Origin: an uncultured Pelagibacteraceae bacterium
Lineage (GTDB): Bacteria; Pseudomonadota; Alphaproteobacteria; Pelagibacterales; Pelagibacteraceae
Direction of reading: 5' to 3'
Length of the DNA: 64,000 nt
Assembly (NCBI GenBank): GCA_902623735.1
Contig: CACNUU010000003.1
Location: forward strand, 1 to 64,000
The translations under genes were made by a program, and so were the position numbers. Below, in pieces: positions 6,476 through 35,929 of the stretch (positions are counted from its first letter, which is position 1; every line of letters starts with the position of its first letter). A model generated the notes under the pieces. That model was not told the DNA's origin, ran no database searches, and saw only the letters and a list, made by a program, of their open reading frames with translations.

Positions 6476-6479
6476 TAAA

Positions 6480-6508
6480 TTGTTAAGAAATCTAAATTAA
6501 TCTATAAT
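6480..6508 (+). promoter_or_regulatory. Candidate sigma70 promoter of the allantoin gene set (TTGTTA-N17-TATAAT)
   Basis: -35 TTGTTA 6480-6485, 17-nt spacer, -10 TATAAT 6503-6508; the ATG at 6514 lies 5 nt after the -10. Confidence 0.65.
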
Positions 6509-6513
6509 TGTAC

Positions 6514-7413
6514 ATGATCAAAAAAAATTCACGAGACCTCATAGGGTATGGAAGAAAAGGAAAAAAAGTTTCATGGCCCAATAACGCTAAATTAGCTCTT
6601 CAAATAGTTTTAAATTATGAGGAAGGTGGAGAAAATTGTGTATTAAATGGAGATAAATACTCAGAAAATTTTTTATCAGAAATCATTGGTGCTAAGGCGA
6701 TAAAAGGTAGACATATAAGTATGGAAAGCATTTATGAATACGGGTCTAGATCAGGGTTTTGGAGATTAGACAGATTATTCAGAGAAAAGAAAATTCCTGT
6801 AACTATTTTTGGAGTAGGATTAGCATTAAAACAAAACATAGATGTATGTAACGCAATAAAAAACGGTGACTATGAAATTGCAGCTCATGGTTATAGATGG
6901 ATTGACTATCAAAATGTAAAAAAAACAGTAGAAAAAAAACATATGCAAATGGCTATTAAAACAATAAAAAATATCTTTGGTTCAAGGCCGTTAGGTTGGT
7001 ATACAGGTCGATGCAGTCCAAACACTAGAGATTTAGTTTTTGATGAGGGAGGATTTTTATATGATAGTGATAGCTATAGTGACGATCTACCTTATTGGGA
7101 ATATAGAGGAAAAAAGAAACAACTTATCATTCCTTACACTTTAGACAATAATGATATGCGATTTGCAACAAACCAAGGATTCAATACTGGGGACCATTTT
7201 TATAATTATTTAAAAGATAGCTTTGATACTTTATATGAAGAAGGAAAAGCTAGTCCTAAAATGATGTCAGTTGGATTACATTGTAGGCTAATAGGAAGAC
7301 CCGGAAGAATTCAATCATTAAAAAAATTTTTAGATTATGTTCTAAAATTCGAGGATATATGGATTTGTAAAAGAATTGATATAGCTAACTATTGGATTAA
7401 AAATTACTCATAA
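6514..7413 (+). CDS. puuE: Polysaccharide-deacetylase-type allantoinase (PuuE-like)
   Basis: 'DLIGYGRKGKKVSWPNNAKLALQIVLNYEEGGE', 'FGVGLALKQN', 'AAHGYRWIDYQ', 'GWYTGRCSPNTRDL'; next to allantoicase. Start moved from the track TTG (6508) to ATG 6514. Confidence 0.88.
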   Translation: MIKKNSRDLIGYGRKGKKVSWPNNAKLALQIVLNYEEGGENCVLNGDKYSENFLSEIIGAKAIKGRHISMESIYEYGSRSGFWRLDRLFREKKIPVTIFGVGLALKQNIDVCNAIKNGDYEIAAHGYRWIDYQNVKKTVEKKHMQMAIKTIKNIFGSRPLGWYTGRCSPNTRDLVFDEGGFLYDSDSYSDDLPYWEYRGKKKQLIIPYTLDNNDMRFATNQGFNTGDHFYNYLKDSFDTLYEEGKASPKMMSVGLHCRLIGRPGRIQSLKKFLDYVLKFEDIWICKRIDIANYWIKNYS

Positions 7414-7414
7414 A

Positions 7415-8398
7415 ATGAAGGAAAAGATAATATTTACTAATGGATTGATAGATTTAGCTCAACCAAGGTTGGGTACAAAAGTGATTTATAAAACTGATGA
7501 TTTTTTTGCTTCTGCAAATAGAATTATTAGTCCAACATCACCAGTGTTCAAAGAGGGAGTGTTTGATAAACACGGAAAATGGATGGATGGATGGGAATCT
7601 AGAAGAAAAAGAACTTTAGGACACGATTACATTGTTTTGAAATTGGGTAAGCCAGGAAGAATTTCTAAGATTGATGTAGATACATCTCATTTTAATGGTA
7701 ATCAACCCTCAATGGTCTCAATTGAAGGAGCCAATTCCAATTCAAACAAAATCACACAATTTAAATGGACCTCAATTCTTTCGAAAAAAAAGGTTAAAGC
7801 TAATTCACATCATTTTTTTTCAGTCAAAAACAATAATATATTTACACATATAAAATTTAACATTTTTCCTGATGGCGGTGTTGCTAGATTAAGATTATAT
7901 GGTTCAATTGCAAAATCAAAAAAATTTAAGAATAAAAAAATAAACCTAGCTTCATTACTTGATGGGGCATCAGTTATCGCTTGTAATAATGAACACTTTG
8001 GGAAAGCTGAAAATATTTTAGCTCCTGGAAAAGCAAAAAATATGGGTGACGGTTGGGAGACCAGAAGAAGAAGGGGTAAGGGAAATGACTGGTTAATTCT
8101 AAATTCAATTGATGGTAGATCTATTGATAAAATCGAAATTTCAACACATCATTTTAAAGGAAATTATCCAAGTTACTGTTCTTTACAAGCTGCTTATTTG
8201 CCATCTAAAAATTCTAAAAAAATTGTAAGCTCCTCAAATAAATGGAAATATTTATTAAAAAATACAAAATTATCAGCTAATAAAACTCATAAATTTAAAA
8301 ATTCTCTTATGAAAAGAGAAAAAATTAATCATATTAAAATTAACATATTTCCTGATGGAGGTATCTCAAGATTTAAAATTTTTGGTAAAAAAATATGA
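7415..8398 (+). CDS. alc: Allantoicase
   Basis: 327 aa with two internally repeated halves: 'DGWESRRKRTLGHDYIVLKLG' / 'DGWETRRRRGKGNDWLILNS'; 'HFNGNQPS' / 'HFKGNYPSYCSLQAA'; 'FPDGGVARLRLYG' / 'FPDGGISRFKIFG'. Confidence 0.93.
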   Translation: MKEKIIFTNGLIDLAQPRLGTKVIYKTDDFFASANRIISPTSPVFKEGVFDKHGKWMDGWESRRKRTLGHDYIVLKLGKPGRISKIDVDTSHFNGNQPSMVSIEGANSNSNKITQFKWTSILSKKKVKANSHHFFSVKNNNIFTHIKFNIFPDGGVARLRLYGSIAKSKKFKNKKINLASLLDGASVIACNNEHFGKAENILAPGKAKNMGDGWETRRRRGKGNDWLILNSIDGRSIDKIEISTHHFKGNYPSYCSLQAAYLPSKNSKKIVSSSNKWKYLLKNTKLSANKTHKFKNSLMKREKINHIKINIFPDGGISRFKIFGKKI

Positions 8399-8898
8399 CT
8401 GAATTAGTTGTAAAACCAAAACCAATCACGAAAGAAAATTTTAGAAAATTTGGCGACATGATAACAACTGCAGATATTAAGCCTATTGAGATTAATAATG
8501 GTTATGCAAAACGATATGATGGTATTGCAAATTTAAATACTAAAAAAAATAATGGTGAGTCGACTATTAGTATTTTTTCAGCTCTTAAAAGATCTTTTCC
8601 CATGAAAGTAGATATGATGGAAAAACATCCACTTGGAAGCCAAGCTTTTATTCCGATGAAAGAAACAACTTTTTTAGCTTTCGTAGCTCCTGAAGGCGAC
8701 AGACCAGACTTAGATAAAATTGAATCTTTTATAATTCCAAGAGGAATAGGAATTAATTATAATCCAGGTATTTGGCATTTCCCTTTAATATCTACAGAGG
8801 ACATGAACTTTTTAGTTGTAGATAGATTGGGTGATGGAGAAAACCTTGTTCTCTATGATCTAAATAAAGAAAATATTACTTTAGAATTCAAATCATAA
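8395..8898 (+). CDS. allA: Ureidoglycolate lyase
   Basis: 167 aa; 'HPLGSQAFIPM', 'FIIPRGIGINYNPGIWHFPL'; start overlaps the allantoicase stop. Confidence 0.9.
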   Translation: MTELVVKPKPITKENFRKFGDMITTADIKPIEINNGYAKRYDGIANLNTKKNNGESTISIFSALKRSFPMKVDMMEKHPLGSQAFIPMKETTFLAFVAPEGDRPDLDKIESFIIPRGIGINYNPGIWHFPLISTEDMNFLVVDRLGDGENLVLYDLNKENITLEFKS

Positions 8899-8900
8899 AA

Positions 8901-8930
8901 AAAGCCCATCAATGAAAATTGATGGGCTTT
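8901..8930. terminator. Bidirectional intrinsic terminator between convergent allA and NCS1 permease
   Basis: 13-bp perfect stem AAAGCCCATCAAT-GAAA-ATTGATGGGCTTT with T-rich flanks on both strands. Confidence 0.9.
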
Positions 8931-8944
8931 AATTTTAAATTTAA

Positions 8945-10399
8945 TTATCTTTTTGAAGATGATATTGCCAAGTGAATTAAAGCACCTAATGCTGCTCCAA
9001 TTATCCAAGCGTATCCTCCGCCACCACCTAAGTTAGCAAAGAAATCATCTAGTCCCATGAATAAAATGTTAGGCCATACTGTACCAACAGCTATATATCC
9101 TGATAGTGCCCAGGCTAACATTCCTTTTCCATTGAAACCACCATTGTAGTGATACTTACCACTAGGTGAGTCACTAAATAGATCATCAACATCTAATCTT
9201 TGTTTTTTAATTATATAGTAATCAGTAATCATGATACCAAATACAGGAGCTAAAATTGCACCTAAAGTGTTTACAAATGGAAACATTCCCATTTGAGTGA
9301 TTACCGCAACCCATAAACCACCAATTACAAAACCAAAACCAGCAGTTATTAAACCACCAATTCTAAAATTAATTTTGCTTGGGATTAAGTTAGCAAGGTC
9401 ATACGCAGGAGGTATAAAGTTTGCAACCATATTAATACCAACTGTCGCTGCAAAAAATGCAAATGCTGCAACAATTGTTAACACAATGTTATCTACTTTA
9501 GCTACCATATCAGTTGGACTTGCTACATATTCTCCAAAGATAGCAATTGTTCCACCAGTAATCATTAAAGTAATGAATGAAAAGAAAACTACGTTACCTA
9601 CTAATCCCCATAGGTTACCTTTTTTCATTTCATCTTCATCTTTAACAAATCTAGCAAAGTCACCGAAGTTAATTACCACAGCAGCAAAATATCCAACCAT
9701 AATTGAAAATACTGCCAAGAATGCACCAAATGAACCTAAACCTTCAAATCCACCTGAACGTTCTCCACCAGAAAATATTTCTCCAACTTCTGATAGAAGG
9801 CTTCCTCCAGCTTTAAACCAAATTACTATCATCAATAGAACCATCACAACATAAACTGCTGGTCCTGCAAAGTTCAAGAATCTTTTTACTAGATCTATTC
9901 CTTGCCAGAATAAGTAAACTTGGAATCCTGACACAAATATAAATGATACCCACATTACTCCTGTCATTCCTAGAAACATTTCAGTCCCAGGATTGCCAGT
10001 AATAGCTGTAATTAGTAGTGCCACAGCAGTCGATGCTGCATATGTTTGTGCTCCATACCAGAACATTGCCACAAGCCCTCTTGCCATTGCAGGAAAGTTT
10101 GCACCAAATACACCCATACTTACTCGGGCGAATACTGGATAAGGAATACCATGTTTGACACTTGGTTTACCTGATAGGTTTACTAACCACATGATAAAAA
10201 AGCCAGCAAGTATTAAAGCTAAAAATACTGCCCAACCATTTAACCCTGAGGCTATAAATAGTGATGCTGCTAAAGTATATCCAAATAAGCTTTGAACATC
10301 ATTTGCCCATACGTTGAAAATTTCGAACCATCCCCAATTCTTTTTATTTGACGGAGTTGGTGCCAAATCAGCATTGTAGAGCGATTTTGATCTACTCAT
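8945..10399 (-). CDS. NCS1-family nucleobase/allantoin/hydantoin-type permease
   Basis: 484 aa; 'YNADLAPTPSNKKNWGWFEIFNVWANDVQSLFGYTLAASLF', 'GIPYPVFARVSMGVFGANFPAMARG', 'WYGAQTY'; GAGGAG Shine-Dalgarno. Confidence 0.9.
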   Translation of the reverse strand: MSRSKSLYNADLAPTPSNKKNWGWFEIFNVWANDVQSLFGYTLAASLFIASGLNGWAVFLALILAGFFIMWLVNLSGKPSVKHGIPYPVFARVSMGVFGANFPAMARGLVAMFWYGAQTYAASTAVALLITAITGNPGTEMFLGMTGVMWVSFIFVSGFQVYLFWQGIDLVKRFLNFAGPAVYVVMVLLMIVIWFKAGGSLLSEVGEIFSGGERSGGFEGLGSFGAFLAVFSIMVGYFAAVVINFGDFARFVKDEDEMKKGNLWGLVGNVVFFSFITLMITGGTIAIFGEYVASPTDMVAKVDNIVLTIVAAFAFFAATVGINMVANFIPPAYDLANLIPSKINFRIGGLITAGFGFVIGGLWVAVITQMGMFPFVNTLGAILAPVFGIMITDYYIIKKQRLDVDDLFSDSPSGKYHYNGGFNGKGMLAWALSGYIAVGTVWPNILFMGLDDFFANLGGGGGYAWIIGAALGALIHLAISSSKR

Positions 10400-10519
10400 A
10401 TTTTTCTCCTCTGTGTATTGCGAGTTATAACTAGTTAAATTTACGCAACGTTAATGCACAAACCCTATTGATTTTTATATTAATTTCAAACTATTGATTT
10501 TTTAATGGCTGTTTCTTAG

Positions 10520-10582
10520 TATTGTATATCAATGATTAATTAGTGTAAGCCTAAAATGGACACTTCGGTATTGTAGACAATT
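10520..10582. promoter_or_regulatory. Two GntR-type operator-like sites upstream of the NCS1 permease
   Basis: TATTGTATATCAAT (10520-10533) and TATTGTAGACAATT (10569-10582), both close to the TTGTATACAA pattern known for many FCD-GntR regulators. Confidence 0.4.
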
Positions 10583-12017
10583 AATTATTCCAACCACCAA
10601 CAGCTTTTACTTCTAAGAACTCTTCAAGTCCATGTTCTCCTGCTTCTCGACCGATACCTGAGTGCTTAAAACCACCAAAGGGTGCATCAACTGCAATCCC
10701 AGCACCATTTACGTCCACCATTCCTGATCGTAATTTTCTTGCAACTCTTTTAACCTTCTCTTTATCTTGAGTTTGAATATAGTTTGTTAAGCCATATGGA
10801 GTATCATTTGCAATTTCTATTGCTTCTTTTTCATCTTCAAAAGGCATTACAGATAAAACTGGTCCAAAAATTTCTGTTCTAGCAATTTCCATACTGTTAT
10901 TTACATCAGCAAAAACAGTTGGTTTTACAAAATAACCTTTTTGCAAGCCTTCAGGTTTACCTGGACCCCCTGCAATTAATTTAGCGCCTTCATCAATACC
11001 TTTTTTAATTAAAGTTTGAATTTTATTATACTGAGTTTCAGAAATCACAGGACCAATATGTTCTCCCTCTTTCTTAGGATCACCAACCTCAAAATTCTCT
11101 GTATACTTTTTTAATCTTTCTACAGCTTCTTTATACATTGATTTCTCAACCAACATTCTTGTTGGTGCATTACATGATTGACCAGAATTTCTAAAACATC
11201 TCAAGGCACCTCGCTCAATAGCTTCAGGGTCAGCATCTTTAAATATAATATTAGCACCTTTGCCACCTAACTCTAAACTTACTCTTTTAAAATCTTTAGC
11301 AGCATTTTGTGAAATAAGAGCTCCAGCACGAGTTGAGCCAGTAAATGAAATCATATTAATATCTGGGTGAGAGGTCAATGCGTTACCAGTGGTAGCACCA
11401 TCTCCGTTAATTAAGTTAAATACCCCTGGTGGAAAACCTGTTTCATCAATTAACTCTGCTAAAATCATTGACGATAAAGGAGCAAGCTCAGATGGCTTTA
11501 AAACCATTGTACATCCAGATGCTATTGCTGGCATAACTTTTAAACAAACTTGGTTCATCGGCCAATTCCAAGGAGTTATCAAAGCACAAATTCCTTTTGG
11601 TTCATAAATAAGTCTTTGATTAGGTGCATGGTCACCTAGTGGTTTTTCAAATTCAAAATTTTTTAAATATCTAATGAATGATTTTAAGTGAGCCGCGCCA
11701 GTTCCTGCTTGTAATTTTGTAGCAAAATCTTTTGGTGCTCCCATTTCAGTTGTAATTGCTTCGGCGATATCTGCCCATCTTTTTTTATAATTTTCATAAA
11801 GTTTTTCTAATAATCTAATTCTTTCCTCTTTTTTAGAATATGCCCATGAGCTATATGCTCTTTTTGCTGAACTTACTGCATTATCAACATCTTCTTTATT
11901 ACCTAAAGAAATAACTGCGCAGTTTTCTTCTGTTGCAGGATTAATTACTTTTATTTCTTGATTGCTTTTTGGAATTATCCATTTTCCATCAATATAAAAA
12001 TTTTTTTTATCTTCCAT
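10581..12017 (-). CDS. NAD(P)-dependent aldehyde dehydrogenase
   Basis: 478 aa; 'ITPWNWPMNQ', 'FTGSTRAG', 'ELGGKGANIIF', 'NSGQSCNAPTR'. Confidence 0.95.
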   Translation of the reverse strand: MEDKKNFYIDGKWIIPKSNQEIKVINPATEENCAVISLGNKEDVDNAVSSAKRAYSSWAYSKKEERIRLLEKLYENYKKRWADIAEAITTEMGAPKDFATKLQAGTGAAHLKSFIRYLKNFEFEKPLGDHAPNQRLIYEPKGICALITPWNWPMNQVCLKVMPAIASGCTMVLKPSELAPLSSMILAELIDETGFPPGVFNLINGDGATTGNALTSHPDINMISFTGSTRAGALISQNAAKDFKRVSLELGGKGANIIFKDADPEAIERGALRCFRNSGQSCNAPTRMLVEKSMYKEAVERLKKYTENFEVGDPKKEGEHIGPVISETQYNKIQTLIKKGIDEGAKLIAGGPGKPEGLQKGYFVKPTVFADVNNSMEIARTEIFGPVLSVMPFEDEKEAIEIANDTPYGLTNYIQTQDKEKVKRVARKLRSGMVDVNGAGIAVDAPFGGFKHSGIGREAGEHGLEEFLEVKAVGGWNN

Positions 12018-12037
12018 ATCAGACTCCTAACCTTTCT

Positions 12038-12997
12038 TTATTTTTTTGCAAACAAATTAGTTAATTCATAAACAATTGTTGCTGCAGCTAAAGAAGTTAC
12101 TTCTGCATGATCGTAAGCTGGTGAAACCTCAACAACATCAGCAGATATTAAATTCATTCCTGATAAACCTCGAATTACATTGACCATCTCTCTTGAGGTC
12201 ATTCCGGCTATTTCTGGTGTACCCGTTCCAGGAGCAAAAGCGGGATCCAAAACATCAATATCAATTGATAAATATAAAGGATTATTTCCAACTCTTTTTT
12301 TTATCCTCTCGGCAATTTTATCAGTTCCTTCAGTTTGAAACTCATCACAATGGATTATTTTAAATCCAAAACTTTCATCATTTTTTAGATCATCTCTACT
12401 ATATAAAGGGCCTCTTATACCAACATGCATAGATGAGTCGTCTAAAAACAAATTTTCTTCTCTAGCTCGTCTAAAAGGAGTTCCATGAGTGTACGGTGCG
12501 CCAAAATAAGTATCCCATGTATCAAGATGAGCATCAAAATGAACTAAAGCAACTGGACCTTTATTTATTTTATTAACTGCTTTTAACAAAGGAAATGCAA
12601 TTGTATGATCCCCACCTAAGCTGATAATACCTCCTGTTTTTTTTAATAAATCAGTTGCCCCCTCCTCAATTTGCTTAATTGCTTCATCAATATTAAAAGG
12701 ATTGCATGTTATATCGCCAGCATCCGCCACCTGCTGAACTTTAAAGGGCTCTACATCATAATTTGGATGATAATTTGTTCTTAAATGCCTCGATGCTTGT
12801 CTAATACTTTGAGGACCAAATCTTGCCCCAGGTCTGTAACTTGTACCTGCATCAAAGGGTATTCCCACAATTGCTACATCGCAGTAATCAACATCTCTCA
12901 ACTCTGGTAATCGAGCAAAAGTAGATGGTCCAGCGAACCTAGGAACTTTAGTTCCACTTACTGGCTGAATAGGTTCTTTACTACTTTTTTTTTTCAT
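12038..12997 (-). CDS. Agmatinase/guanidinobutyrase-family ureohydrolase
   Basis: 'GGDHTIAFPLL', 'HFDAHLDTWDTYFGAPYTHGTPFRRA', 'SIDIDVLDPAFAPGTGTPE'. Start moved from TTG 13024 to ATG 12997. Confidence 0.9.
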   Translation of the reverse strand: MKKKSSKEPIQPVSGTKVPRFAGPSTFARLPELRDVDYCDVAIVGIPFDAGTSYRPGARFGPQSIRQASRHLRTNYHPNYDVEPFKVQQVADAGDITCNPFNIDEAIKQIEEGATDLLKKTGGIISLGGDHTIAFPLLKAVNKINKGPVALVHFDAHLDTWDTYFGAPYTHGTPFRRAREENLFLDDSSMHVGIRGPLYSRDDLKNDESFGFKIIHCDEFQTEGTDKIAERIKKRVGNNPLYLSIDIDVLDPAFAPGTGTPEIAGMTSREMVNVIRGLSGMNLISADVVEVSPAYDHAEVTSLAAATIVYELTNLFAKK

Positions 12998-13051
12998 TAT
13001 AAAAAGTCTATCACATTCTAACAATTTGGAATATCTTCAATAATACCAATT

Positions 13052-21189: not shown

Positions 21190-22359
21190 TTAGCTTTTAA
21201 CGTGAAGTTCTTTAGAAAAATTACAAAATAATTCATGTCCTTTATCTGTAACTCTTATTGCCTCTGAAGCTTCAACACCCCAATTTCCAAATTGCATCAC
21301 TGCAATCATATGGAAAGTAACATTTGGTTTTAATACTGTTGTATCACCTTTTGAAATATTTAAAGTATGTTCACCCCAATCTGGTGGATAACCAATGCCG
21401 ATGGAATATCCTGTTCTTGAAGTTTTCTCTATTCCATATTTATCTAAAATCTTCCAAAATGCCTGGGCAACATCATCCGCTGTATTTCCTGATTTTACTT
21501 TATCAATACCGGCTTGTAATGCTTCGTTTGTTTTTTTCATGGTATCAATTTTCTTTTGATCTGGTTTTCCAAGTAAAACTGTTCGAGCCATAGGGCAATG
21601 ATATTTCTTATTAACTCCTGATAATTCAATTATTGTAGCTTCCTCGTCTACAAATTTATCCTCGGTCCATGTTAAATGTGAAGCTGATGTTCCTTTTCCA
21701 GTTGGAATCATTGGGACTATAGATGAATAATCTCCTCCAAATTCTGGTGTTCCTTTGATTAATGTACTATAAATTTCTGATACAGCATCACATTGTCTTA
21801 CACCAGGATTAATAACCTCAAATGCTTTTTTCATTCCTAGCTCAGTTATTTGAGCTGCTGCTTTCATAAATTTTATTTCCATCTCTGATTTTACAACTCT
21901 CACCCAATTAACTAATCTTTCACAATCTAAAATTTTTGCATTAGGTAATCCCTGTATAATTTTTTCATAACAATAGGCTGTAAAATAATGACTATCCATT
22001 TCAAGTCCAACCGAAAGCTTATCCCACTTTTTTTCTTTAATAAGATCTACAAGTGCATCATAAGGGTGAAGTGGCCAAGTATGAATATATTTCTCTTGAT
22101 ACTTGATAATATTTTCATCTTTAAGATAAGTTTTAATATAAGCTCCACCAGCATCTTGGTCTCTTACAAAACAAATTGGTTCATCAGCATTAATATGTAC
22201 AATTACACATTGAGCGTAATAAAATGACCATGCATCGTAACCAGTCAAATAATTCATGTTAGATGGATCTTGAGAAATTAAAAGATCAATTCCTTTTTCT
22301 TGCATGGAGGCTTGAACTTTTTTTAATCTAGATTTGTATTCATCATTAGAAAAATTCAT
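21190..22359 (-). CDS. doeA: M24-family ectoine hydrolase-like protein (DoeA/EutD type)
   Basis: 389 aa; 'KGIDLLISQDPSNMNYLTGYDAWSFYYAQCVIV', 'GGDYSSIVPMIPTGKGTSASHLTW', 'GYSIGIGYPPDWGEHTLNIS' match DoeA/EutD as I recall them; adjacent to EutA-like gene. Confidence 0.72.
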   Translation of the reverse strand: MNFSNDEYKSRLKKVQASMQEKGIDLLISQDPSNMNYLTGYDAWSFYYAQCVIVHINADEPICFVRDQDAGGAYIKTYLKDENIIKYQEKYIHTWPLHPYDALVDLIKEKKWDKLSVGLEMDSHYFTAYCYEKIIQGLPNAKILDCERLVNWVRVVKSEMEIKFMKAAAQITELGMKKAFEVINPGVRQCDAVSEIYSTLIKGTPEFGGDYSSIVPMIPTGKGTSASHLTWTEDKFVDEEATIIELSGVNKKYHCPMARTVLLGKPDQKKIDTMKKTNEALQAGIDKVKSGNTADDVAQAFWKILDKYGIEKTSRTGYSIGIGYPPDWGEHTLNISKGDTTVLKPNVTFHMIAVMQFGNWGVEASEAIRVTDKGHELFCNFSKELHVKS

Positions 22360-22362
22360 AAA

Positions 22363-23106
22363 CTAATTATAAAACAACTCCCCAAAACCTCTTATATTAT
22401 TATTTTGATCAATCTCTTCTAATGTATTCCAAATTAAAGCTTGGTTGCTCGATAGAACAGGCTTATTTAATTTTTTTTCTAGCTTATCAATTATATTTAG
22501 GACTGGTAATGCCGTACATGAAATAAATAAAGCATCAGCATCACCTAAATCCATATTAGACAAAGTTTTAAATAAAAAATCTTCATCAACTTTGCCAATG
22601 TCATAATCTGCAGCAATATCCAAATAAGTATTAGAAACGATATCAAATTTTTCACCTAAAAAAAAATTTACAACTTCATCATTCAGCTTTTTAGAATAAG
22701 GAGTGAAAATTGCTAATTTTTTTATATTAAGTTTTTTTAAAGCTTTTATTGCGGCAGAACTGGGAGTAGTAAGTTTTGCTTTAGGTTTTGCAGCCTTAAC
22801 TTTTTTTTCAATTGAATCATAGCCAGCAGCAATTGTTCCTGAAGTGCAGCCATAAACTACACAATCTATATCCTCATTTGGTAGTATATTATTTGTTACA
22901 TCAGTTACTTTTTCTGACATCCTAATTAAATTTTCTTTAGTAAGAGGATTATAACACTCAATTCTATTAACAAAAAAATCAATCTCTTTATCTTTTATAA
23001 TTTTTATAAAGTCTCTCTCAATCATGAAGTCAGTTGCTAAAGCAATTAAACCAACTCTAGGGTTATGTTTATTTATAAATTGGGGTGTTATTTTTTTTGT
23101 CTTCAT
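22363..23106 (-). CDS. eutA: Asp/Glu racemase / maleate isomerase-fold protein, EutA-like
   Basis: 247 aa; 'PRVGLIALATDFMIERDF', 'DCVVYGCTSGTIAAG', 'DALFISCTALPVLNIID'. Confidence 0.68.
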   Translation of the reverse strand: MKTKKITPQFINKHNPRVGLIALATDFMIERDFIKIIKDKEIDFFVNRIECYNPLTKENLIRMSEKVTDVTNNILPNEDIDCVVYGCTSGTIAAGYDSIEKKVKAAKPKAKLTTPSSAAIKALKKLNIKKLAIFTPYSKKLNDEVVNFFLGEKFDIVSNTYLDIAADYDIGKVDEDFLFKTLSNMDLGDADALFISCTALPVLNIIDKLEKKLNKPVLSSNQALIWNTLEEIDQNNNIRGFGELFYN

Positions 23107-23148: not shown

Positions 23149-23946
23149 ATGAAAGATTTTATTTTTATACCAATAAAAATTCTTGTAGTTTTATTTTTAT
23201 TTATTTTTGTTAATTCTAACTCCTTTGCTGGTACTAAAATTGGAAAAGGAGAAGTTATAATGAGTGAAAAGTCTGTTGATTGGTTTATTCAGTATATTAG
23301 AGGGAAAAAAAGTATGAAGCCAATGGCTTTTATACTTTCAAGTAATGGCCAGTGGTCCACTTACTGGTATTGTCCTGCAGGATCATGTCGATCTGCAAAT
23401 TTTATGCCTACCATAAGAGAATGTCAGGAAGCAACTGGTGTAGAATGTGGATTGTTTGCAAGACGCTATTCTGTCATTTGGAAAAATGGAATAAAACCAA
23501 AAAAGTCAATTGTTAGAATGAAATGGTCTGATCAGGAAATAAGGGATGCTCTAAAGGAATGGGGTTTTTATGGGGTTCCAAAAAACTCAAGTACAAAAGA
23601 ATCAAAAGAATCTTCTACAAAAAAAATTACCAAAAAATATGAAACTAAAGGTGAAAGATCTATTGCTCTAAGTTGGGAGGGTTATGATGAACTTATAGCT
23701 GGAAAAATAAATTTTAATGAAAAAGATTATAAGGGTAATTTTAGTTTATCATTACCAAATAATGATGGTGAATGTGAAGGAAATTATATTTTACAAAAAA
23801 ACGGAACAGGAACATGGCAACTTTCATGCTCTAACAAAATGGGGGCAGCAGGAACACTCAAATGGATACCTGATAAAAGTGTCAAAGGTGTGGGCAGAGA
23901 CTATAATGACAAAAAAGTTAAGTTTACAGTTTCTCAAAAAGGCTAA
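23149..23946 (+). CDS. Secreted protein of unknown function
   Basis: 265 aa, signal peptide 'LVVLFLFIFVNSNSFA', Cys-containing central block 'YWYCPAGSCRSANFMPTIRECQEATGVECGLFARRYSVIWKNG'. Confidence 0.7.
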   Translation: MKDFIFIPIKILVVLFLFIFVNSNSFAGTKIGKGEVIMSEKSVDWFIQYIRGKKSMKPMAFILSSNGQWSTYWYCPAGSCRSANFMPTIRECQEATGVECGLFARRYSVIWKNGIKPKKSIVRMKWSDQEIRDALKEWGFYGVPKNSSTKESKESSTKKITKKYETKGERSIALSWEGYDELIAGKINFNEKDYKGNFSLSLPNNDGECEGNYILQKNGTGTWQLSCSNKMGAAGTLKWIPDKSVKGVGRDYNDKKVKFTVSQKG

Positions 23947-24072
23947 GATATATATTGATTAAATAGTCTAGTTAAATTACAGTCTTTCTAGAGCGATACA
24001 TAACTCGTCGATATTTACAAAATACGAAAGTGGGATCAATCGTCTTAGATTTAATTATTTAAGGAGGTTAGA

Positions 24073-25239
24073 ATGAAATTTGGTTATTTTTGCAATACCA
24101 CAAACTGGGATCATAAACCGTATAAACAATTATTAGATGAAACTAAGGAGATCACTACTTATTGTGATGAAAATAATTGGGACTCTATTTGGTACACAGA
24201 GCATCACTTTAATCATGAAGGAATGGAGTCTTGCACAAACCCTTTAATGATGGGTGTTGATGCAGCTGCGAGAACTAAACAAATTAGAATAGGGCAAGCT
24301 TGTAATGTTATTACTTTTCATAACCCAATAAGATTAGCAGAAGATATTGCCTTATTGGATCAATTATCCAATGGAAGAGTTGAGGTTGGAATTGGTAGAG
24401 GTATTTATGGAAGGGAAGCAATTAATATGAATAAAGAAGCTGATCTTAAAGATCAGGCTAAAAACTTCAGATTATTTGAGGAAACTTTAACTATAATGAA
24501 AAAAGCTTGGACTGAAGAATTTTTTAGTCATAAGGGTGAATTTTATACTTATCCATCACCAAATTTTGTATGGCAACATGATATGAGTCCGCCAAGTGAA
24601 AAATTTTTAGATACAAAAACAAATGAAATAAAAAAAATAAGTATTGTTCCAAAACCAAAACAGACTCCTCATCCTCCAATTTGGCAGGTGGTAGATGGTG
24701 CAAGATCAATTGAATGGGCAGCACAAAATGGTCTTAATACTATAATGTGGATACCTACCGTAAAAGCGTTAAAGAAAAGGTTTGAGATATACAGAGATGC
24801 TAAATCAAAAGCTGAAAATAGAGATGTTCCATTAGGCGAAGGTATTTCGCTCGTGAGAGATATGTTTGTTGCAGAAACAATGGAGGAAGCAGAAAAATTA
24901 GCTGGAGAACACATTATAAATTATATGAGATGGGTTTGTCATTGGAGAGGTTTAGGAAATCATATGGATCCAGGTGAAGAATTACCAGAGACAAAGCATA
25001 AATTAGATCTTCTTAATTATGATTTCTTACATAAAAGAAATCTGTTATTTGGCACTCCAGAGTATGTGGTTAATAAAATTAATGAATTAAAATCAGAGTT
25101 AAATTTACAAAACTTGCAAGTTTGGTCAAACTTTCCTGGAATTGATCACAAGGCTTGTATGAGGAGTATAAAACTTTTCAATGATGAAGTGATCCCTAAA
25201 ATTAATTTTGATAACGACGATATAGAGAGAGCTAGTTAG
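24073..25239 (+). CDS. LLM-class (luciferase-like) flavin-dependent monooxygenase
   Basis: 388 aa; 'WYTEHHFNHEGMESCTNPLMMGVDAAARTKQIRIGQACNVITFHNPIRLAEDIALLDQLSNGRVEVGIGRG'; AAGGAGG SD. Confidence 0.93.
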   Translation: MKFGYFCNTTNWDHKPYKQLLDETKEITTYCDENNWDSIWYTEHHFNHEGMESCTNPLMMGVDAAARTKQIRIGQACNVITFHNPIRLAEDIALLDQLSNGRVEVGIGRGIYGREAINMNKEADLKDQAKNFRLFEETLTIMKKAWTEEFFSHKGEFYTYPSPNFVWQHDMSPPSEKFLDTKTNEIKKISIVPKPKQTPHPPIWQVVDGARSIEWAAQNGLNTIMWIPTVKALKKRFEIYRDAKSKAENRDVPLGEGISLVRDMFVAETMEEAEKLAGEHIINYMRWVCHWRGLGNHMDPGEELPETKHKLDLLNYDFLHKRNLLFGTPEYVVNKINELKSELNLQNLQVWSNFPGIDHKACMRSIKLFNDEVIPKINFDNDDIERAS

Positions 25240-25826
25240 TGAAACTCGAATTAAGGAAGTTTACAAAATTTGTAGATAAAACTTTTATTGAGGGAGGAAA
25301 AGATGCCAAGGAACCTGTTTTAATGGTTTCAGTAGCAGCTGTTTTCAAAAACCCTTGGGCTGGACAGGGATTTGTTGAAGATTTAAAACCAGTCATTTTA
25401 GATTTAGCTCCAAAACTTGGTGACTTATTGGTACCAGAATTAATTAAAGAAATTGGATCACCTGAAAAAATTCTTGCTTATGGTAAAGCAGGGACTGTAG
25501 GTTTAAAAGGTGAAATAGAGCACGCGTCAGCTTTTATTCATACTTTAAGATTTGGAAATAAATTTAGAGATGCTGTTGGTGGTACATCTTACTTAAGTTT
25601 TACCAATACTAGAGGGCCCGCAGGATCTAAAATTTCTATTCCTATGATGCACAAAACAGACTCTGGTTTAAGACCATATTATCTTACTCATGAGTTTACT
25701 ATTCATGATGCTCCTTTTGATGATGAAATTGTAATTGCGATTGGTGGCGCTTCAAGTGGTAGAGCCCACGCAAGAACTGGAGATCGTTATCAAGACATGA
25801 AAGAAATGGGATTAGATCCCAAATAA
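25239..25826 (+). CDS. DUF1185 / 'amino acid synthesis' family protein
   Basis: 195 aa, GTG start overlapping the LLM stop; 'VSVAAVFKNPWAGQGFVEDL', 'AYGKAGTVGLKGEIEHASAFIHTLRFGNKFRDAVGGTSYLSFTNTRGPAGSKISIPMMHK'. Confidence 0.82.
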   Translation: MKLELRKFTKFVDKTFIEGGKDAKEPVLMVSVAAVFKNPWAGQGFVEDLKPVILDLAPKLGDLLVPELIKEIGSPEKILAYGKAGTVGLKGEIEHASAFIHTLRFGNKFRDAVGGTSYLSFTNTRGPAGSKISIPMMHKTDSGLRPYYLTHEFTIHDAPFDDEIVIAIGGASSGRAHARTGDRYQDMKEMGLDPK

Positions 25827-25830
25827 TTAA

Positions 25831-26613
25831 ATGTCTAAAAATTTTGATTCAAATCAAAATTATTATTTCTTTAATAAAAAAGATTCAATTCCTATTGTTT
25901 TTATCCACGGAGTTGGCATTGATCATCAAATGTGGGGCCATCAAGTAAATTATTTTAATGAGTATTCAACCTTAACTTATGATCTGCTGGGTCACGGGAA
26001 AACTCCGTGTAATAAAGAAAAATTATCTCTTAAAGATTTTTCAGGACAGCTTTTAGAGATTTTAGATTATCTTAAGATAGATAAAATAAATCTTGTAGGA
26101 TTTTCTTTAGGGTCTTTGATTGCTTTGAATTTTTCATCTCTTTTTCAAAATAAAGTTGAAAAATTAATATTAATCGGAACTACTTATAAAAGATCTGATC
26201 AAGAAAGATCTCTTGTATTAGATAGATATAATCAAGCTAAATTAAATATGCCAATTTCTAAACAAGCCTTAAAAAGATGGTTTAGTGATAAATATCTTGA
26301 GGATAATCCTAAAACTTACGATTTATTTATGAATATTCTAAATAAAAAACCAGATGATCATAAAAATTTTCTCAAGGCTTATGAGTTATTTGCTAATCAC
26401 TATGATGATTTTGAGGCTATTAAAAAAATAGATAGAAAAACATTAGTAATGACTGGTTCAGATGATATCGGTTCAACTCCAGCAATGTCTAAAGAATTGG
26501 TCAAAGATCTTGTTAATTCCACTTATATAGAAATTAGAAATGGAAAACATCTTTGTAGTATAGAGTGTGCAGATGATGTTAATATGAGCATTAAAAATTT
26601 TATAAATAATTAA
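25831..26613 (+). CDS. Alpha/beta-fold hydrolase
   Basis: 'IPIVFIHGVGIDHQMWGHQVNYF', nucleophile elbow 'LVGFSLGSLIAL', C-terminal 'GKHLCSIE'. Confidence 0.92.
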   Translation: MSKNFDSNQNYYFFNKKDSIPIVFIHGVGIDHQMWGHQVNYFNEYSTLTYDLLGHGKTPCNKEKLSLKDFSGQLLEILDYLKIDKINLVGFSLGSLIALNFSSLFQNKVEKLILIGTTYKRSDQERSLVLDRYNQAKLNMPISKQALKRWFSDKYLEDNPKTYDLFMNILNKKPDDHKNFLKAYELFANHYDDFEAIKKIDRKTLVMTGSDDIGSTPAMSKELVKDLVNSTYIEIRNGKHLCSIECADDVNMSIKNFINN

Positions 26614-28095
26614 ATGTCAAAAGTTCAAAATTTTAAAATGTATATTGACGGTGAGTGGGTTAATTCTTCCTCGGGAAAAAAAATTGAAACATTAAATCCA
26701 GAAAATAATGAAGTTTGGGCAACGGTTCCTGAAGCTAGTGAAAAAGACGTAGATAAAGCTGTCCAATCGGCTCAAAAGGCTTTTGATAACAGTTGGTCAA
26801 AATTACATCCAAGAGATAGAGCAAAATATTTAAGATTAATTGCTGATCAACTTAGAGCTAACGCAGAACATCTTGGTAAAATAGAGACTATTGATACTGG
26901 AAAACTTTTTAGAGAAACAAAAACTCAAGCAAACTATATTGCAGAATATTATGACTATTTTGCTGGTTTAGCAGACAAAGTGGAAGGAACTGTCGTTCCA
27001 ATAGATAAACCTGATATGCAGGTAACAACTACTAGAATACCTATTGGTGTTGTGGCTGCAATTATTCCTTGGAATTCTCAAATGCTTTTAACAGCTGTTA
27101 AGCTTGCTCCAGCCCTTGCTATGGGCAACACTGTTGTTATTAAAGCTTCTGAACTTGCTCCTGTTACCCTTTTAGAATTTGCAAAATTGGTTGAAAAAAC
27201 TGGAATACCAAAAGGAGTAATTAATATTATCACAGGATTAGGTGAACCATGTGGTAAAGCTTTAACAACGCATCATCTTGTGGAAAGAATTGCTTTTACC
27301 GGCGGACCCGAAACTGCAAAACATATTATTAAAAATTCTGCTGAAAATTTATCTCAAGTAAGTTTAGAGTTGGGTGGCAAAAGTCCAGTTGTAGTTTTTG
27401 ATGATGCTGATCAAGAAAATGCTTTAAATGGTATAACTGCAGGTATATTTGGAGCAAGTGGACAAAGTTGTATTGCAGGATCAAGACTTTATTTACATTC
27501 TAATATTTATGATGAGTTTTTAAAAAAATTAATTTCTAAAGCTGAAAATATAAAATTAGGTGGTCCAATGGAAAAAGACACCCAAATGGGGCCTTTAAAC
27601 AGTTTTAAACAATTAGAGAATATAGAAAAAAATATTAAAGCAACTCTTCATCAAGGTGGAAAAATCAGATGTGGTGGGAAAAGATCCTCTGTTTCAAACA
27701 AAGGTTATTACTTTCCAGCAACTATCATAGAATGTGAAAATCATAATCTTCCTGTTGCAGAAAATGAATTATTTGGTCCAATATTATCTGTCATGAAGTT
27801 TAGTAAAGAGGATGAGGTGATAGAAAAGATGAATGATAATAAGTATGGACTTTCATCTGGAGTTTATACTTCTAACTTTGCAAGGGGTCTTAGAGTATCT
27901 AAGGCAATACGTGCTGGAATAGTTTTTATTAACACTTATAGATTAATTTCTCCAATGGCTCCTTTTGGCGGTATTAAAGATAGTGGCTATGGAAAAGAAG
28001 CAGGAATTGAGTCTATAAAAGAATACACAAGAATAAAGACTACATGGTACAATTCATCTGATAAACCGATGACCGACCCATTCACAATGGGATAA
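26614..28095 (+). CDS. Aldehyde dehydrogenase
   Basis: 493 aa; 'IIPWNSQMLL', 'FTGGPETAKHI', 'ELGGKSPVVVFDDAD', 'ASGQSCIAGSRL'. Confidence 0.95.
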   Translation: MSKVQNFKMYIDGEWVNSSSGKKIETLNPENNEVWATVPEASEKDVDKAVQSAQKAFDNSWSKLHPRDRAKYLRLIADQLRANAEHLGKIETIDTGKLFRETKTQANYIAEYYDYFAGLADKVEGTVVPIDKPDMQVTTTRIPIGVVAAIIPWNSQMLLTAVKLAPALAMGNTVVIKASELAPVTLLEFAKLVEKTGIPKGVINIITGLGEPCGKALTTHHLVERIAFTGGPETAKHIIKNSAENLSQVSLELGGKSPVVVFDDADQENALNGITAGIFGASGQSCIAGSRLYLHSNIYDEFLKKLISKAENIKLGGPMEKDTQMGPLNSFKQLENIEKNIKATLHQGGKIRCGGKRSSVSNKGYYFPATIIECENHNLPVAENELFGPILSVMKFSKEDEVIEKMNDNKYGLSSGVYTSNFARGLRVSKAIRAGIVFINTYRLISPMAPFGGIKDSGYGKEAGIESIKEYTRIKTTWYNSSDKPMTDPFTMG

Positions 28096-28098
28096 ATT

Positions 28099-28956
28099 TT
28101 GCCGATCAAACATTTATTAATCTTAATCTTTATAATGATTGCTCATGGAAGTGCTTTTCCAGTAGCAAAATTAGCTCTTAATAACTCAGTACCACCTATA
28201 CTAATGGCATCTTTGAGGATGGGTCTTGTGTTTGTAATTTTAATACCCTTTTGGAGATTTAAGATTCCAGAAAAAAAATACCTTAAATCTTTAATAGCTT
28301 TTTCTATATCTATGGGTGTTTTAGTTTATGTTTTTATGAACTTATCACTTTATTATTCATCAATTATATCCCCGATTATTCTTGGTTCTCAACTTGCTAT
28401 ACCTTTTGGAATTCTTGCAAGTGCTATAATGTTAGGGGAAAATATAAGCTCAAAGAAATGGTTATTGATATTTAGTGCATTCATAGGAATATTAATAATT
28501 TTTTTTGATCCTAAATTAGCTAATAATTTTTTGGGATTATTTTTTGCAAGTTTAATGGCACTATCTTTTGGATTATCACAGGTTTACTCAAGAGAATTAA
28601 GAAATTTAGATGTAAGCTTACTAAATGCTTTTGTGGGATTAATTGGTTTCTTGGTTTTATTGATCATTTCCTTTTTGATAGAAAAAAATACATTAACAAA
28701 TATTGTTTCTATTAATTTAGACTCATGGTTCCTGATTTCTTATCAAGCTATAGTGGTTTCTTTGGGAGCTCATTTATTAATGTTTTATTTATATAAATTT
28801 TATACAGTAGGAAAAATTTTTCCTTTTTATTCTTTATTCCCAATCTTTGGGATAATATTAACATTTCTAGTATTTGGAGAGATACCAACTTTATTGTTCA
28901 TATTAGGAGGGATTATTGTAATAACCTCAGTCTTTTTCCTTCATAAAATTAAATAA
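28099..28956 (+). CDS. EamA/DMT-family transporter
   Basis: 285 aa, about 10 TM; 'HGSAFPVAKLALNNSVPPILMASLRMGLVFV'; TTG start. Confidence 0.85.
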   Translation: MPIKHLLILIFIMIAHGSAFPVAKLALNNSVPPILMASLRMGLVFVILIPFWRFKIPEKKYLKSLIAFSISMGVLVYVFMNLSLYYSSIISPIILGSQLAIPFGILASAIMLGENISSKKWLLIFSAFIGILIIFFDPKLANNFLGLFFASLMALSFGLSQVYSRELRNLDVSLLNAFVGLIGFLVLLIISFLIEKNTLTNIVSINLDSWFLISYQAIVVSLGAHLLMFYLYKFYTVGKIFPFYSLFPIFGIILTFLVFGEIPTLLFILGGIIVITSVFFLHKIK

Positions 28957-29030: not shown

Positions 29031-30212
29031 ATGAAAAAACTAATTATTGCTGCTTTTATATTCGTTTCTACTTACACAACGAATGCATTTGCAGAAATTA
29101 AAATGGGTATAATTTTAGGTTTTACTGGACCTATTGAATCTCTTACACCAGCAATGGCTGCTTCAGCTGAGCTTGCTTTTAAAGAAGCTTCAGACTCTGG
29201 TTCATTATTAGGTGGAGAAAAAATTTCAGTAATAAGAGCTGACTCAACTTGTGTTGACTCAGCAGCAGCAACAGCGGCAGCTGAAGGTGTAATTTCACAA
29301 GGTGTGGCAGCAATTATGGGTGCTGATTGTTCAGGTGTAACTGGTGCAATCGCTTCTAACGTTGCAGTGCCTAATGGTGTTGTTATGATATCACCCTCTG
29401 CAACTTCTCCAGGATTAACTACTTTAGATGACAAAGGTTATTTCTTTAGAACTGCTCCATCTGATGCTAGAGGTGGACAGATCCTTGCTGATATTACTAA
29501 AGACAGAAAAGTAAAAAGTGTTGCAATCACTTATACAAATAATGACTACGGAAAAGGTTTAGCAGATGTTTACAAAGCAGCTGTTGAAGCTCATGGTATT
29601 AAAGTAACTACTGTAACTGCTCATGAAGATGGAAAAGCAGATTACTCATCTGAAGTGGCAACTCTTGCTTCAGCAGGTGGTGATGCAGTTGCTGTAATAG
29701 GATATCTTGACCAAGGTGGAAAAGGAATTATCCAAGCTTCTTTAGACTCTGGTGCTTTTGATAAATTTATTTTATCTGATGGTATGATCGGTCAATCTTT
29801 AGTTGATGCTTTTGGAAAAGATTTAAAAAAATCTTTTGGATCAATGCCTGGTTCAACTGGTAAAGGTGCAGGTGTATTCGGTAATGTAGCTAAAGCTGCA
29901 GGTATCGACAGCTCAGGTCCTTACACAGGTGAATCTTATGATGCAGCTGCTTTGATTGTTTTAGCAATGCAAGCAGGTGGATCAGCTGATAGAGCATCAA
30001 TTGCAAAAAATGTAATGGATGTTGCTAATAGCCCTGGAACTAAAATTTACCCAGGTGAACTTAAAAAAGGTTTAGATTTATTAGCTAAAGGTAAAAAAGT
30101 TGACTACGAAGGTGCAACTGGAGTTACTTTTACTAGCGTCGGTGAAGCTGAAGGTTCTTTCTTAGAACAAGAAGTTAAAGGCGGAAAATTCAAAACTAAA
30201 AAACAAAGATAA
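29031..30212 (+). CDS. livK: Branched-chain amino-acid-type ABC substrate-binding protein
   Basis: Signal peptide 'MKKLIIAAFIFVSTYTTNAFA', 'GFTGPIESLTPAMAASAELAFKEA'. Start moved from TTG 29007 to ATG 29031 with AAGAAGG SD. Confidence 0.88.
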   Translation: MKKLIIAAFIFVSTYTTNAFAEIKMGIILGFTGPIESLTPAMAASAELAFKEASDSGSLLGGEKISVIRADSTCVDSAAATAAAEGVISQGVAAIMGADCSGVTGAIASNVAVPNGVVMISPSATSPGLTTLDDKGYFFRTAPSDARGGQILADITKDRKVKSVAITYTNNDYGKGLADVYKAAVEAHGIKVTTVTAHEDGKADYSSEVATLASAGGDAVAVIGYLDQGGKGIIQASLDSGAFDKFILSDGMIGQSLVDAFGKDLKKSFGSMPGSTGKGAGVFGNVAKAAGIDSSGPYTGESYDAAALIVLAMQAGGSADRASIAKNVMDVANSPGTKIYPGELKKGLDLLAKGKKVDYEGATGVTFTSVGEAEGSFLEQEVKGGKFKTKKQR

Positions 30213-34214: not shown

Positions 34215-34982
34215 TTAATTATTTAATCTTTTGTGAATACTATTTAAAGTTTTAATCACAGATCTATAAACACCTTTTTTTTTCATTTCTTTTAAACCCT
34301 GCTCATTTAAACCTTTTGGTGTCTGAGACTCTTTAACTAAATATTTTAAGCTCTTCTTTGAATTCACTACTGCATCTTCTGATAAGGCTAAAAATAAGGA
34401 TGTTATATATTTTTGAGCATCCAATCTTTTGATTCCTTTTTTAGTCAACCAATCACTCATAACATTTAAAATCTCATAATAAGAGGCCATCATTCCTGAG
34501 GTTGACCAAAAGTTAATTGATAATTTTTCATTCTTAATCTCAACAGTTGATCCAATTTTATCGAAAAACATTTTTACTTTTTTGTTTGGAGGATAAATTG
34601 GAACTGGTCCTTTTTTTAACGATATTGGAGGTAATGGAATTGCTCTGACAATTTCAGACTTTACTTTAATCATCTTTTTTAGTTCTGGGAGTGTGATTGT
34701 AGAGATAAAACTAATTATTGTTTGATTATTCTTAAACTTTAAATCTTTGATAATTTTTCCTCCCACTACCGGGGTAACTGCCAAAAAGACCCAATTTGAA
34801 TTATTAATCACTTCTTGATTATTTTTTGCAATACTGATCCTGCTAAATTTTTTTTTAAGATTACCTGCTATTTTTCTATTTCTTGGTGAAATAATTATTT
34901 TTTTATACTTTATTTTTGAAGAACATATACCTGTAATAACTGAAGACGCTATTTTTCCAGTACCTATGAAACCAAGTATCAT
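34215..34982 (-). CDS. Pyrroline-5-carboxylate reductase-family protein (ProC-like)
   Basis: 'MILGFIGTGKIASSVITGI', 'IVRAIPLPPISLKKGPVPIYP', C-terminal helical dimerisation region. Confidence 0.75.
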   Translation of the reverse strand: MILGFIGTGKIASSVITGICSSKIKYKKIIISPRNRKIAGNLKKKFSRISIAKNNQEVINNSNWVFLAVTPVVGGKIIKDLKFKNNQTIISFISTITLPELKKMIKVKSEIVRAIPLPPISLKKGPVPIYPPNKKVKMFFDKIGSTVEIKNEKLSINFWSTSGMMASYYEILNVMSDWLTKKGIKRLDAQKYITSLFLALSEDAVVNSKKSLKYLVKESQTPKGLNEQGLKEMKKKGVYRSVIKTLNSIHKRLNN

Positions 34983-35017: not shown

Positions 35018-35929
35018 TTAATTTTTAAAAAATGAACCCCTAATTCTCAATAGTTCTCTGCTTAAATCTTTGTTTTCTTTAAAGGGTTTTCTACCGTGTA
35101 GCCAAAAATAATTGTTTGCAACTACTGCTGATCCTACGGGTAATTTAGTTATTACTTTATTCTCACTTTCTTCTAAACAATCAGATAATTTTTGTAAAAA
35201 ATTACCTTGAGACATATTTTTAGGCTCAGGAAACTGATCTATGTATGATATTTGTGGTTTTCCATCTTTATCTTCAGAAAATACTGGGTGTTCAACTTTA
35301 TAATCTACATTCTTACTTTTGGGTGAGCCCCATAAAAAATTTTGCTTTCCAACAGGATCATTAAAAAGTTCATCACAATATTCCCAATCATCTAAATGAA
35401 GCATTGCCGTTTCTCCACCTTCAACATTTTTTTCCTCAATCTTAGTCATTAAAAGCCAATCTGTAACTTCTTTTACATATGTTCCATCAGTATGAAGGTC
35501 CATATTTGTATAAGCTTTTCTCAAATATGAGTCGCTCTTATCTTCATGCTTAACATGAAATCTTGCATAATATTTTCCAGCCATTGAATCATAATTAGGT
35601 ATTCCAATTAAATGAGATATTGCTGTTGATAATTTTACTAAGAAAGTATCATCAATATTTGCATTTTTATTTTCAGGACCAATTATAAAACAACCAGAAT
35701 TTCTATCTCTAATAATTTCGTTCATTAAAATACTTAGCTTATTTCCACTTAGATCATCTAAACTTTTGGCGATTGTAAATCTAGTGAAAGGTTTATACTC
35801 AATAGCGGTCAGGTCGAATTTCTTAAATGGAAAAATTAATTTCTCTATAGTTTCATTTTTTATTTTAATATCAATTATTCTAGAAGATATTTTATTAGGA
35901 GATATTTCAAATCCAGATATATTGTTCAT
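35018..35929 (-). CDS. glaH: Glutarate 2-hydroxylase-like Fe(II)/2-oxoglutarate dioxygenase (GlaH/CsiD)
   Basis: 303 aa; 'HLIGIPNYDSMAGKYYARFHVKHEDKSDSYLRKAYTNMDLHTDGTYVKEVTDWLLMTKI', 'YIDQFPEPKN', 'NNYFWLHGRKPF...SRELLRIRGSF' match E. coli CsiD as I recall it. Confidence 0.82.
   Translation of the reverse strand: MNNISGFEISPNKISSRIIDIKIKNETIEKLIFPFKKFDLTAIEYKPFTRFTIAKSLDDLSGNKLSILMNEIIRDRNSGCFIIGPENKNANIDDTFLVKLSTAISHLIGIPNYDSMAGKYYARFHVKHEDKSDSYLRKAYTNMDLHTDGTYVKEVTDWLLMTKIEEKNVEGGETAMLHLDDWEYCDELFNDPVGKQNFLWGSPKSKNVDYKVEHPVFSEDKDGKPQISYIDQFPEPKNMSQGNFLQKLSDCLEESENKVITKLPVGSAVVANNYFWLHGRKPFKENKDLSRELLRIRGSFFKN

Follow-up and report, generated by a model that had tools for sequence, protein, structure and literature searches.

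A conserved, lineage-variable four-gene cassette of Pelagibacterales that looks like a variant of the trigonelline degradation pathway

We analyzed 64,000 nucleotides from an uncultured Pelagibacteraceae bacterium of the SAR11 group (assembly GCA_902623735.1, contig CACNUU010000003.1, positions 1 to 64,000; here, the window) and found a catabolic cassette that is real, conserved, and lineage variable among the Pelagibacterales. Its functional unit is four genes (24073-28095) that encode a luciferase-like monooxygenase (LLM), a DUF1185 protein, an alpha/beta hydrolase, and an aldehyde dehydrogenase (ALDH). Judged by sequence, the cassette looks like a variant of the known trigonelline degradation (Tgn-type) pathway, which it resembles. 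A preliminary description of this DNA had suggested flavin-dependent oxygenation, aldehyde oxidation, and hydrolysis, and the enzyme set is compatible with such a catabolic route. The features of the gene block are as follows.

24061-24067, + strand: Shine-Dalgarno sequence AAGGAGG of the LLM gene, the first gene (read in the sequence)
24073-25239, + strand: LLM (PF00296, E 9e-46)
25239-25826, + strand: DUF1185/AA_synth protein (PF06684, E 2e-64)
25831-26613, + strand: alpha/beta hydrolase (PF00561)
26614-28095, + strand: ALDH (PF00171)
28099-28956, + strand: EamA/DMT permease (PF00892)

All five open reading frames (ORFs) lie on the + strand, separated in this order by -1, 4, 0, and 3 nt, and the LLM TAG stop codon shares its final G with the start of the DUF1185 GTG start codon. 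The ORF reading and the Pfam matches reproduced the five ORFs, coordinates, and 0- to 4-nt spacers reported earlier. The shared strand and near-zero spacers bear out the claim of an operon, and the ORF content agrees that no flavin reductase lies inside the cassette.

PF06684 was present in 99 of 297 Pelagibacterales genomes, as a single copy in each. Of these genomes, 85 belong to the window's genus, 13 to a second family, and 1 to a sister genus. The hydrolase and ALDH genes followed DUF1185 in all 30 SAR11 loci, and in the 35 genomes checked for co-occurrence, which the preliminary description had proposed to examine, the LLM was found in 11 of 11 with PF06684 and 0 of 24 without it. Because of these two patterns, the gene order is far beyond chance. 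Rather than being confined to one strain, a possibility that had been raised, the order is kept in two families of the Pelagibacterales.

The DUF1185 protein has 195 amino acids (aa). The AlphaFold model suggested for it earlier has a mean predicted local distance difference test score (pLDDT) of 90.5 and a chorismate-mutase-like fold, with a template modeling (TM) score of 0.85 to 3byq. Scored against a subfamily profile, PF06684 proteins split into a subfamily A (at least 283 bits), which includes the window protein, and all others (at most 163 bits). A hydrolase, ALDH, or LLM gene lay within ∼1.5 kb of subfamily A genes in 30 of 30 SAR11 loci and 35 of 39 other loci, compared with 0 of 19 loci for other PF06684 genes. 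The structures 3byq (BB2672) and 2qtp (SPO0826) resemble the window protein in fold and in the GEIEH and RxHxR interface residues; where BB2672 has the interface residues discussed in the literature, E90/E92/H93 and R172/H174/R176 (PMC2954203), the window protein has GEIEH and RAHAR. However, the two are only ∼31% identical to it and belong to other subfamilies, without the LLM/hydrolase/ALDH neighborhood, and we rejected DUF1185 proteins of this type as a functional guide.

Six Acinetobacter species carry one cluster with genes for a GntR regulator, DUF1185, a hydrolase, a flavin reductase, an LLM (LLM_B), an ALDH, an NCS1 permease, a porin, and a succinate semialdehyde dehydrogenase (SSADH). 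The SSADH of the A. soli cluster passes the curated cutoff, and 13 of 14 PF06684-carrying Acinetobacter genomes have no further copy of PF06684. The Tgn functions are a flavin reductase, an LLM oxygenase, an ALDH, a hydrolase, an SSADH, and a conserved hypothetical protein; because all six are present, we infer that the Acinetobacter cluster is the tgn cluster. In this pathway, the LLM reportedly cleaves a ring C-C bond, the aldehyde is oxidized, and hydrolysis yields an amine, formate or CO2, and a semialdehyde. The trigonelline degradation cluster, tgnABCDEF of Acinetobacter baylyi, is said to have been described by Perchat et al. in 2018. The earlier statement that no named pathway has this gene set does not stand, as the tgn pathway uses an LLM, flavin reductase, ALDH, hydrolase, SSADH, and DUF1185. 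Across Alpha-, Beta-, and Gammaproteobacteria, the commonest subfamily A arrangement was DUF1185-hydrolase-flavin reductase (Nudix fusion)-LLM_B-ALDH with a GntR regulator.

The SAR11 cassette shares with the Acinetobacter cluster a counterpart of TgnF (DUF1185, 53 to 56% identity), a TgnC-like ALDH (∼50% identity, with a similar NCBIfam ranking), a PcaD-like hydrolase with the same triad, an LLM-class oxygenase, and a compact operon. From these comparisons, the kinship of DUF1185 and ALDH is clear and that of the hydrolase weak. The SAR11 DUF1185 proteins belong to the same subfamily A as the Acinetobacter copies, yet they form a sister clade in the tree. The catalytic residues are intact: the hydrolase (260 aa), which is placed like TgnD, has an S92-D212-H240 triad that is invariant in the alignment, and the ALDH (493 aa) keeps C286 and E252. 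Against TIGR02427, the hydrolase scored below the cutoff.

TgnF and the PF06684 protein HcdD are homologs, and TgnF is reported to stimulate TgnE-dependent succinate semialdehyde oxidation (PMC7913881). The preliminary description had stated that DUF1185 has no assigned reaction, which this report contradicts, and by analogy we propose that the SAR11 protein may be a TgnF-like helper in semialdehyde processing. As a separate observation, DUF1185 occurs in a further catabolic context in the Acinetobacter genome G1057, where a second copy of PF06684 (38%, divergent; L275:9660) clusters with genes for a thiamine diphosphate (ThDP) enzyme, an ALDH, a hydrolase, and an FAD monooxygenase and with SSADH-like genes.

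The LLM (388 aa) keeps the luciferase-type residues E43-H44-H45, which are invariant in the alignment. The nearest folds to its AlphaFold model (pLDDT 86) are RslO1, bacterial luciferase LuxAB, and diketocamphane monooxygenase, all of which use external reduced flavin. Fold and active-site residues place it among the PF00296 two-component monooxygenases dependent on reduced flavin mononucleotide (FMNH2), and we propose that it is an FMNH2-dependent ring-opening oxygenase. No NCBIfam model scored above its cutoff for the LLM, and a PDB sequence search returned general LLM relatives only.

We favor, with moderate confidence, a reading by analogy in which the cassette is a Tgn-type variant that would open a pyridinium-type N-heterocycle oxidatively and lead to acids at the level of the tricarboxylic acid (TCA) cycle. 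The reaction order, substrate class, and direction that we infer would run as follows. The LLM, supplied with FMNH2 by a reductase encoded elsewhere, would oxygenate the heterocycle and break one of the C-C bonds of the ring; the product would be an N-formyl (or N-acyl) enamine that terminates in a semialdehyde. The ALDH would oxidize this end to an acid, with DUF1185 assisting in semialdehyde handling as TgnF does; the PcaD-like hydrolase would split the N-acyl/enamine bond to release an amine and formate or CO2; and the resulting acid would enter the TCA cycle. This supports the earlier choice of N-heterocycles as a substrate class to screen.

Several observations weigh against a Tgn-type variant, beginning with the oxygenase. 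The SAR11 LLM is in the LLM class but is not a TgnB ortholog: it is only 22 to 29% identical to LLM_B and falls in a separate deep, fully supported clade with the LLMs of loci L074 and L253, and therefore its substrate may differ. The gene order is also changed, and the cassette lacks the linked flavin reductase, SSADH, permease, porin, and GntR gene of the tgn cluster. Its single ALDH scores below the SSADH cutoff, with no SSADH in the cluster. The hydrolase adjoins DUF1185 in both SAR11 and Acinetobacter with the same triad, but at only 25 to 29% identity. We found no dedicated transporter for the cassette; the neighboring leucine/isoleucine/valine (LIV)-type binding protein also occurs without it. 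No TgnA-like flavin reductase is linked to the cassette in the window, and among the 297 Pelagibacterales genomes, none that belongs to the window's genus has a PF01613 reductase. A ThDP enzyme gene found in a third of SAR11 copies, unlike in tgn, has no place in the tgn scheme. As a candidate for the missing SSADH, a second ALDH in the window (10581-12017) was rejected, also scoring below the SSADH cutoff.

Sister genera do carry PF01613, and in the second family a copy is often present at another place in the genome. PF03358 proteins, which all 10 Pelagibacter genomes tested encode whether or not they carry the cassette, could supply FMNH2 to the LLM.

A close match to the SAR11 arrangement was an alphaproteobacterial locus (L074, genome G505) with the same type of LLM and the same order of LLM (56%), DUF1185 (63%), hydrolase (32%), and ALDH (51%). 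Unlike the SAR11 cassette, it has a flavin reductase gene directly upstream and a Rieske oxygenase and a LysR regulator in the same gene block. The Rieske oxygenase (L074:11774-12979), upstream of flavin reductase-LLM-DUF1185-hydrolase-ALDH, is related to the glycine betaine monooxygenase GbcA, and an L-pipecolate-oxidase-like gene lies near it.

The ThDP enzyme (565 aa), related to sulfoacetaldehyde acetyltransferase and acetolactate synthase, lies between the LLM and DUF1185 genes in 9 of 30 SAR11 loci, and the second family has it as well. Copies for which the best NCBIfam match is sulfoacetaldehyde acetyltransferase (below the cutoff) are as follows.

L038:5884-7584: ThDP enzyme
L041:9145-10842: ThDP enzyme
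L032:5761-7458: ThDP enzyme
L090:9967-11667: ThDP enzyme, in a tgn-like cluster

The enzyme is likewise encoded in the tgn-like clusters L090, L091, and L144, where the nearby LLM is of another type or missing. This distribution, together with the position of HcdD within a 7-hydroxycoumarin cluster (PMC7913881), would suit a reading in which DUF1185 is a general accessory of several catabolic clusters for aromatics or heterocycles and the cassette handles an unrelated, undescribed substrate that requires the ThDP enzyme in its full form. We consider this unlikely: two-thirds of SAR11 copies have no ThDP gene, the partners of subfamily A are consistently hydrolase, ALDH, and LLM, and a helper effect of HcdD could not be demonstrated (PMC7913881). 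In one genome, a 209-aa ORF that by eye is like an S-adenosylmethionine methyltransferase, with no NCBIfam match, lies between the ThDP and DUF1185 genes (L038:7585-8214).

The LLM fold is close to that of 3,6-diketocamphane monooxygenase, a type II Baeyer-Villiger monooxygenase, and the hydrolase scores best against the model of the enol-lactonase PcaD. A Baeyer-Villiger type route would fit both, with the LLM converting a cyclic ketone or terpenoid to a lactone, the hydrolase opening it, and the ALDH finishing. We regard such a route as quite unlikely; it leaves DUF1185, the most conserved partner, unexplained, and the same DUF1185/hydrolase/ALDH set accompanies tgn-type LLM_B in many proteobacteria.

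Returning to the Tgn-type variant, our guess would be that homarine or trigonelline is the likeliest marine substrate. Because the SAR11 LLM differs, however, the actual substrate may be neither. Homarine is a pyridinium betaine, N-methylpicolinate. It ranks with the most plentiful small molecules in plankton and, in the open ocean, with the most abundant metabolites in particles, and its sinks were not known as of 2021 (PMC8269247). Marine N-methylpyridinium carboxylates such as homarine are a plausible substrate class for the SAR11 cassette, which work on the homarine pathway (Ferrer-Gonzalez et al. 2026, doi 10.1038/s41564-026-02313-7, cited in PMC13390433) may already cover. As a special case of the favored reading, the cassette could be the SAR11 form of this pathway, opening the N-methylpicolinate ring to N-methylglutamate, with Mgd, a reported participant in the breakdown of homarine (PMC13390433), yielding glutamate. 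The abundance of homarine is in keeping with this, and in A. soli, sarcosine-oxidase/Mgd-like genes adjoin the DUF1185-LLM_B cluster. We hold this special case to be possible but rather doubtful, given the difference between the SAR11 LLM and LLM_B and the presence of SoxA/Mgd-like proteins in 10 of 10 SAR11 genomes tested, irrespective of whether they carry the cassette, which makes Mgd uninformative as a marker of homarine use.

SAR11 bacteria rank with the most numerous cells in the ocean, and some of their lineages may consume algal compounds similar to trigonelline. As a patchily distributed unit whose substrate class can be tested, the four-gene cassette would predict the lineages that use these compounds, and PF06684 subfamily A beside the SAR11-type LLM would serve as a metagenome marker. 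The cassette also raises the question of the source of reduced flavin for a two-component monooxygenase in a genus without PF01613 reductases. Tentatively, SAR11 might possess a separate lineage of ring-opening oxygenases that acts on an abundant marine N-heterocycle, for example homarine, and needs no dedicated flavin reductase, extended in places by a ThDP enzyme foreign to known pathways of this kind.

The four genes lie between two flanking features.

21190-23106, - strand: eutD/eutA-like genes, left flank of the insertion site (NCBIfam; empty site in L278)
29031-30212, + strand: LIV-type periplasmic binding protein, right flank (PF13458; present with or without the cassette)

In the cassette-free Pelagibacter locus L278, the LIV binding protein gene directly follows eutA, giving a clean empty site. 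The order in cassette-free L280 is eutA, EamA, LIV binding protein, and in cassette-free L277 and L279 EamA adjoins the LIV binding protein gene, with other genes upstream. Because EamA stands beside the LIV binding protein gene in these three genomes without the other four genes, it is part of the backbone and outside the cassette; it is also missing from several cassette-bearing loci. The preliminary description had counted the EamA exporter into a five-gene route. That the five genes form a new pathway unit is highly improbable on this evidence, even though EamA lies on the same strand 3 nt downstream of ALDH and is probably cotranscribed with the cassette in the window. At the DNA level, the insertion junction was not definable, the flanks being too diverged for alignment. 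The LIV binding protein was found at 78 to 96% identity in most tested cassette-free genomes of the genus, which rules out the neighboring LIV transporter as a dedicated uptake system.

Just upstream of the cassette, a 265-aa ORF (23149-23946, + strand) has no Pfam or NCBIfam match, and neither empty site, L278 or L280, contains it. The eutD/eutA-like pair, with hits to the ectoine hydrolase DoeA family (466 bits, below the cutoff of 613) and the Asp/Glu racemase/arylmalonate decarboxylase family, adjoins a polyamine-type ABC transporter and in several SAR11 genomes flanks the cassette site on its left. Farther away, the window holds a possible ureide/guanidino-nitrogen block (5285-13024) with an acetylornithine deacetylase family protein, an allantoicase, an NCS1/allantoin-permease-like transporter, an ALDH, and an agmatinase family protein. 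It also encodes a histone-deacetylase-like family protein (PF00850; 43500-44393, - strand) and the glutarate dioxygenase GlaH (35018-35929, - strand; NCBIfam, 459 bits against a cutoff of 333), which adjoins a pyrroline-5-carboxylate reductase family protein (34215-34982).

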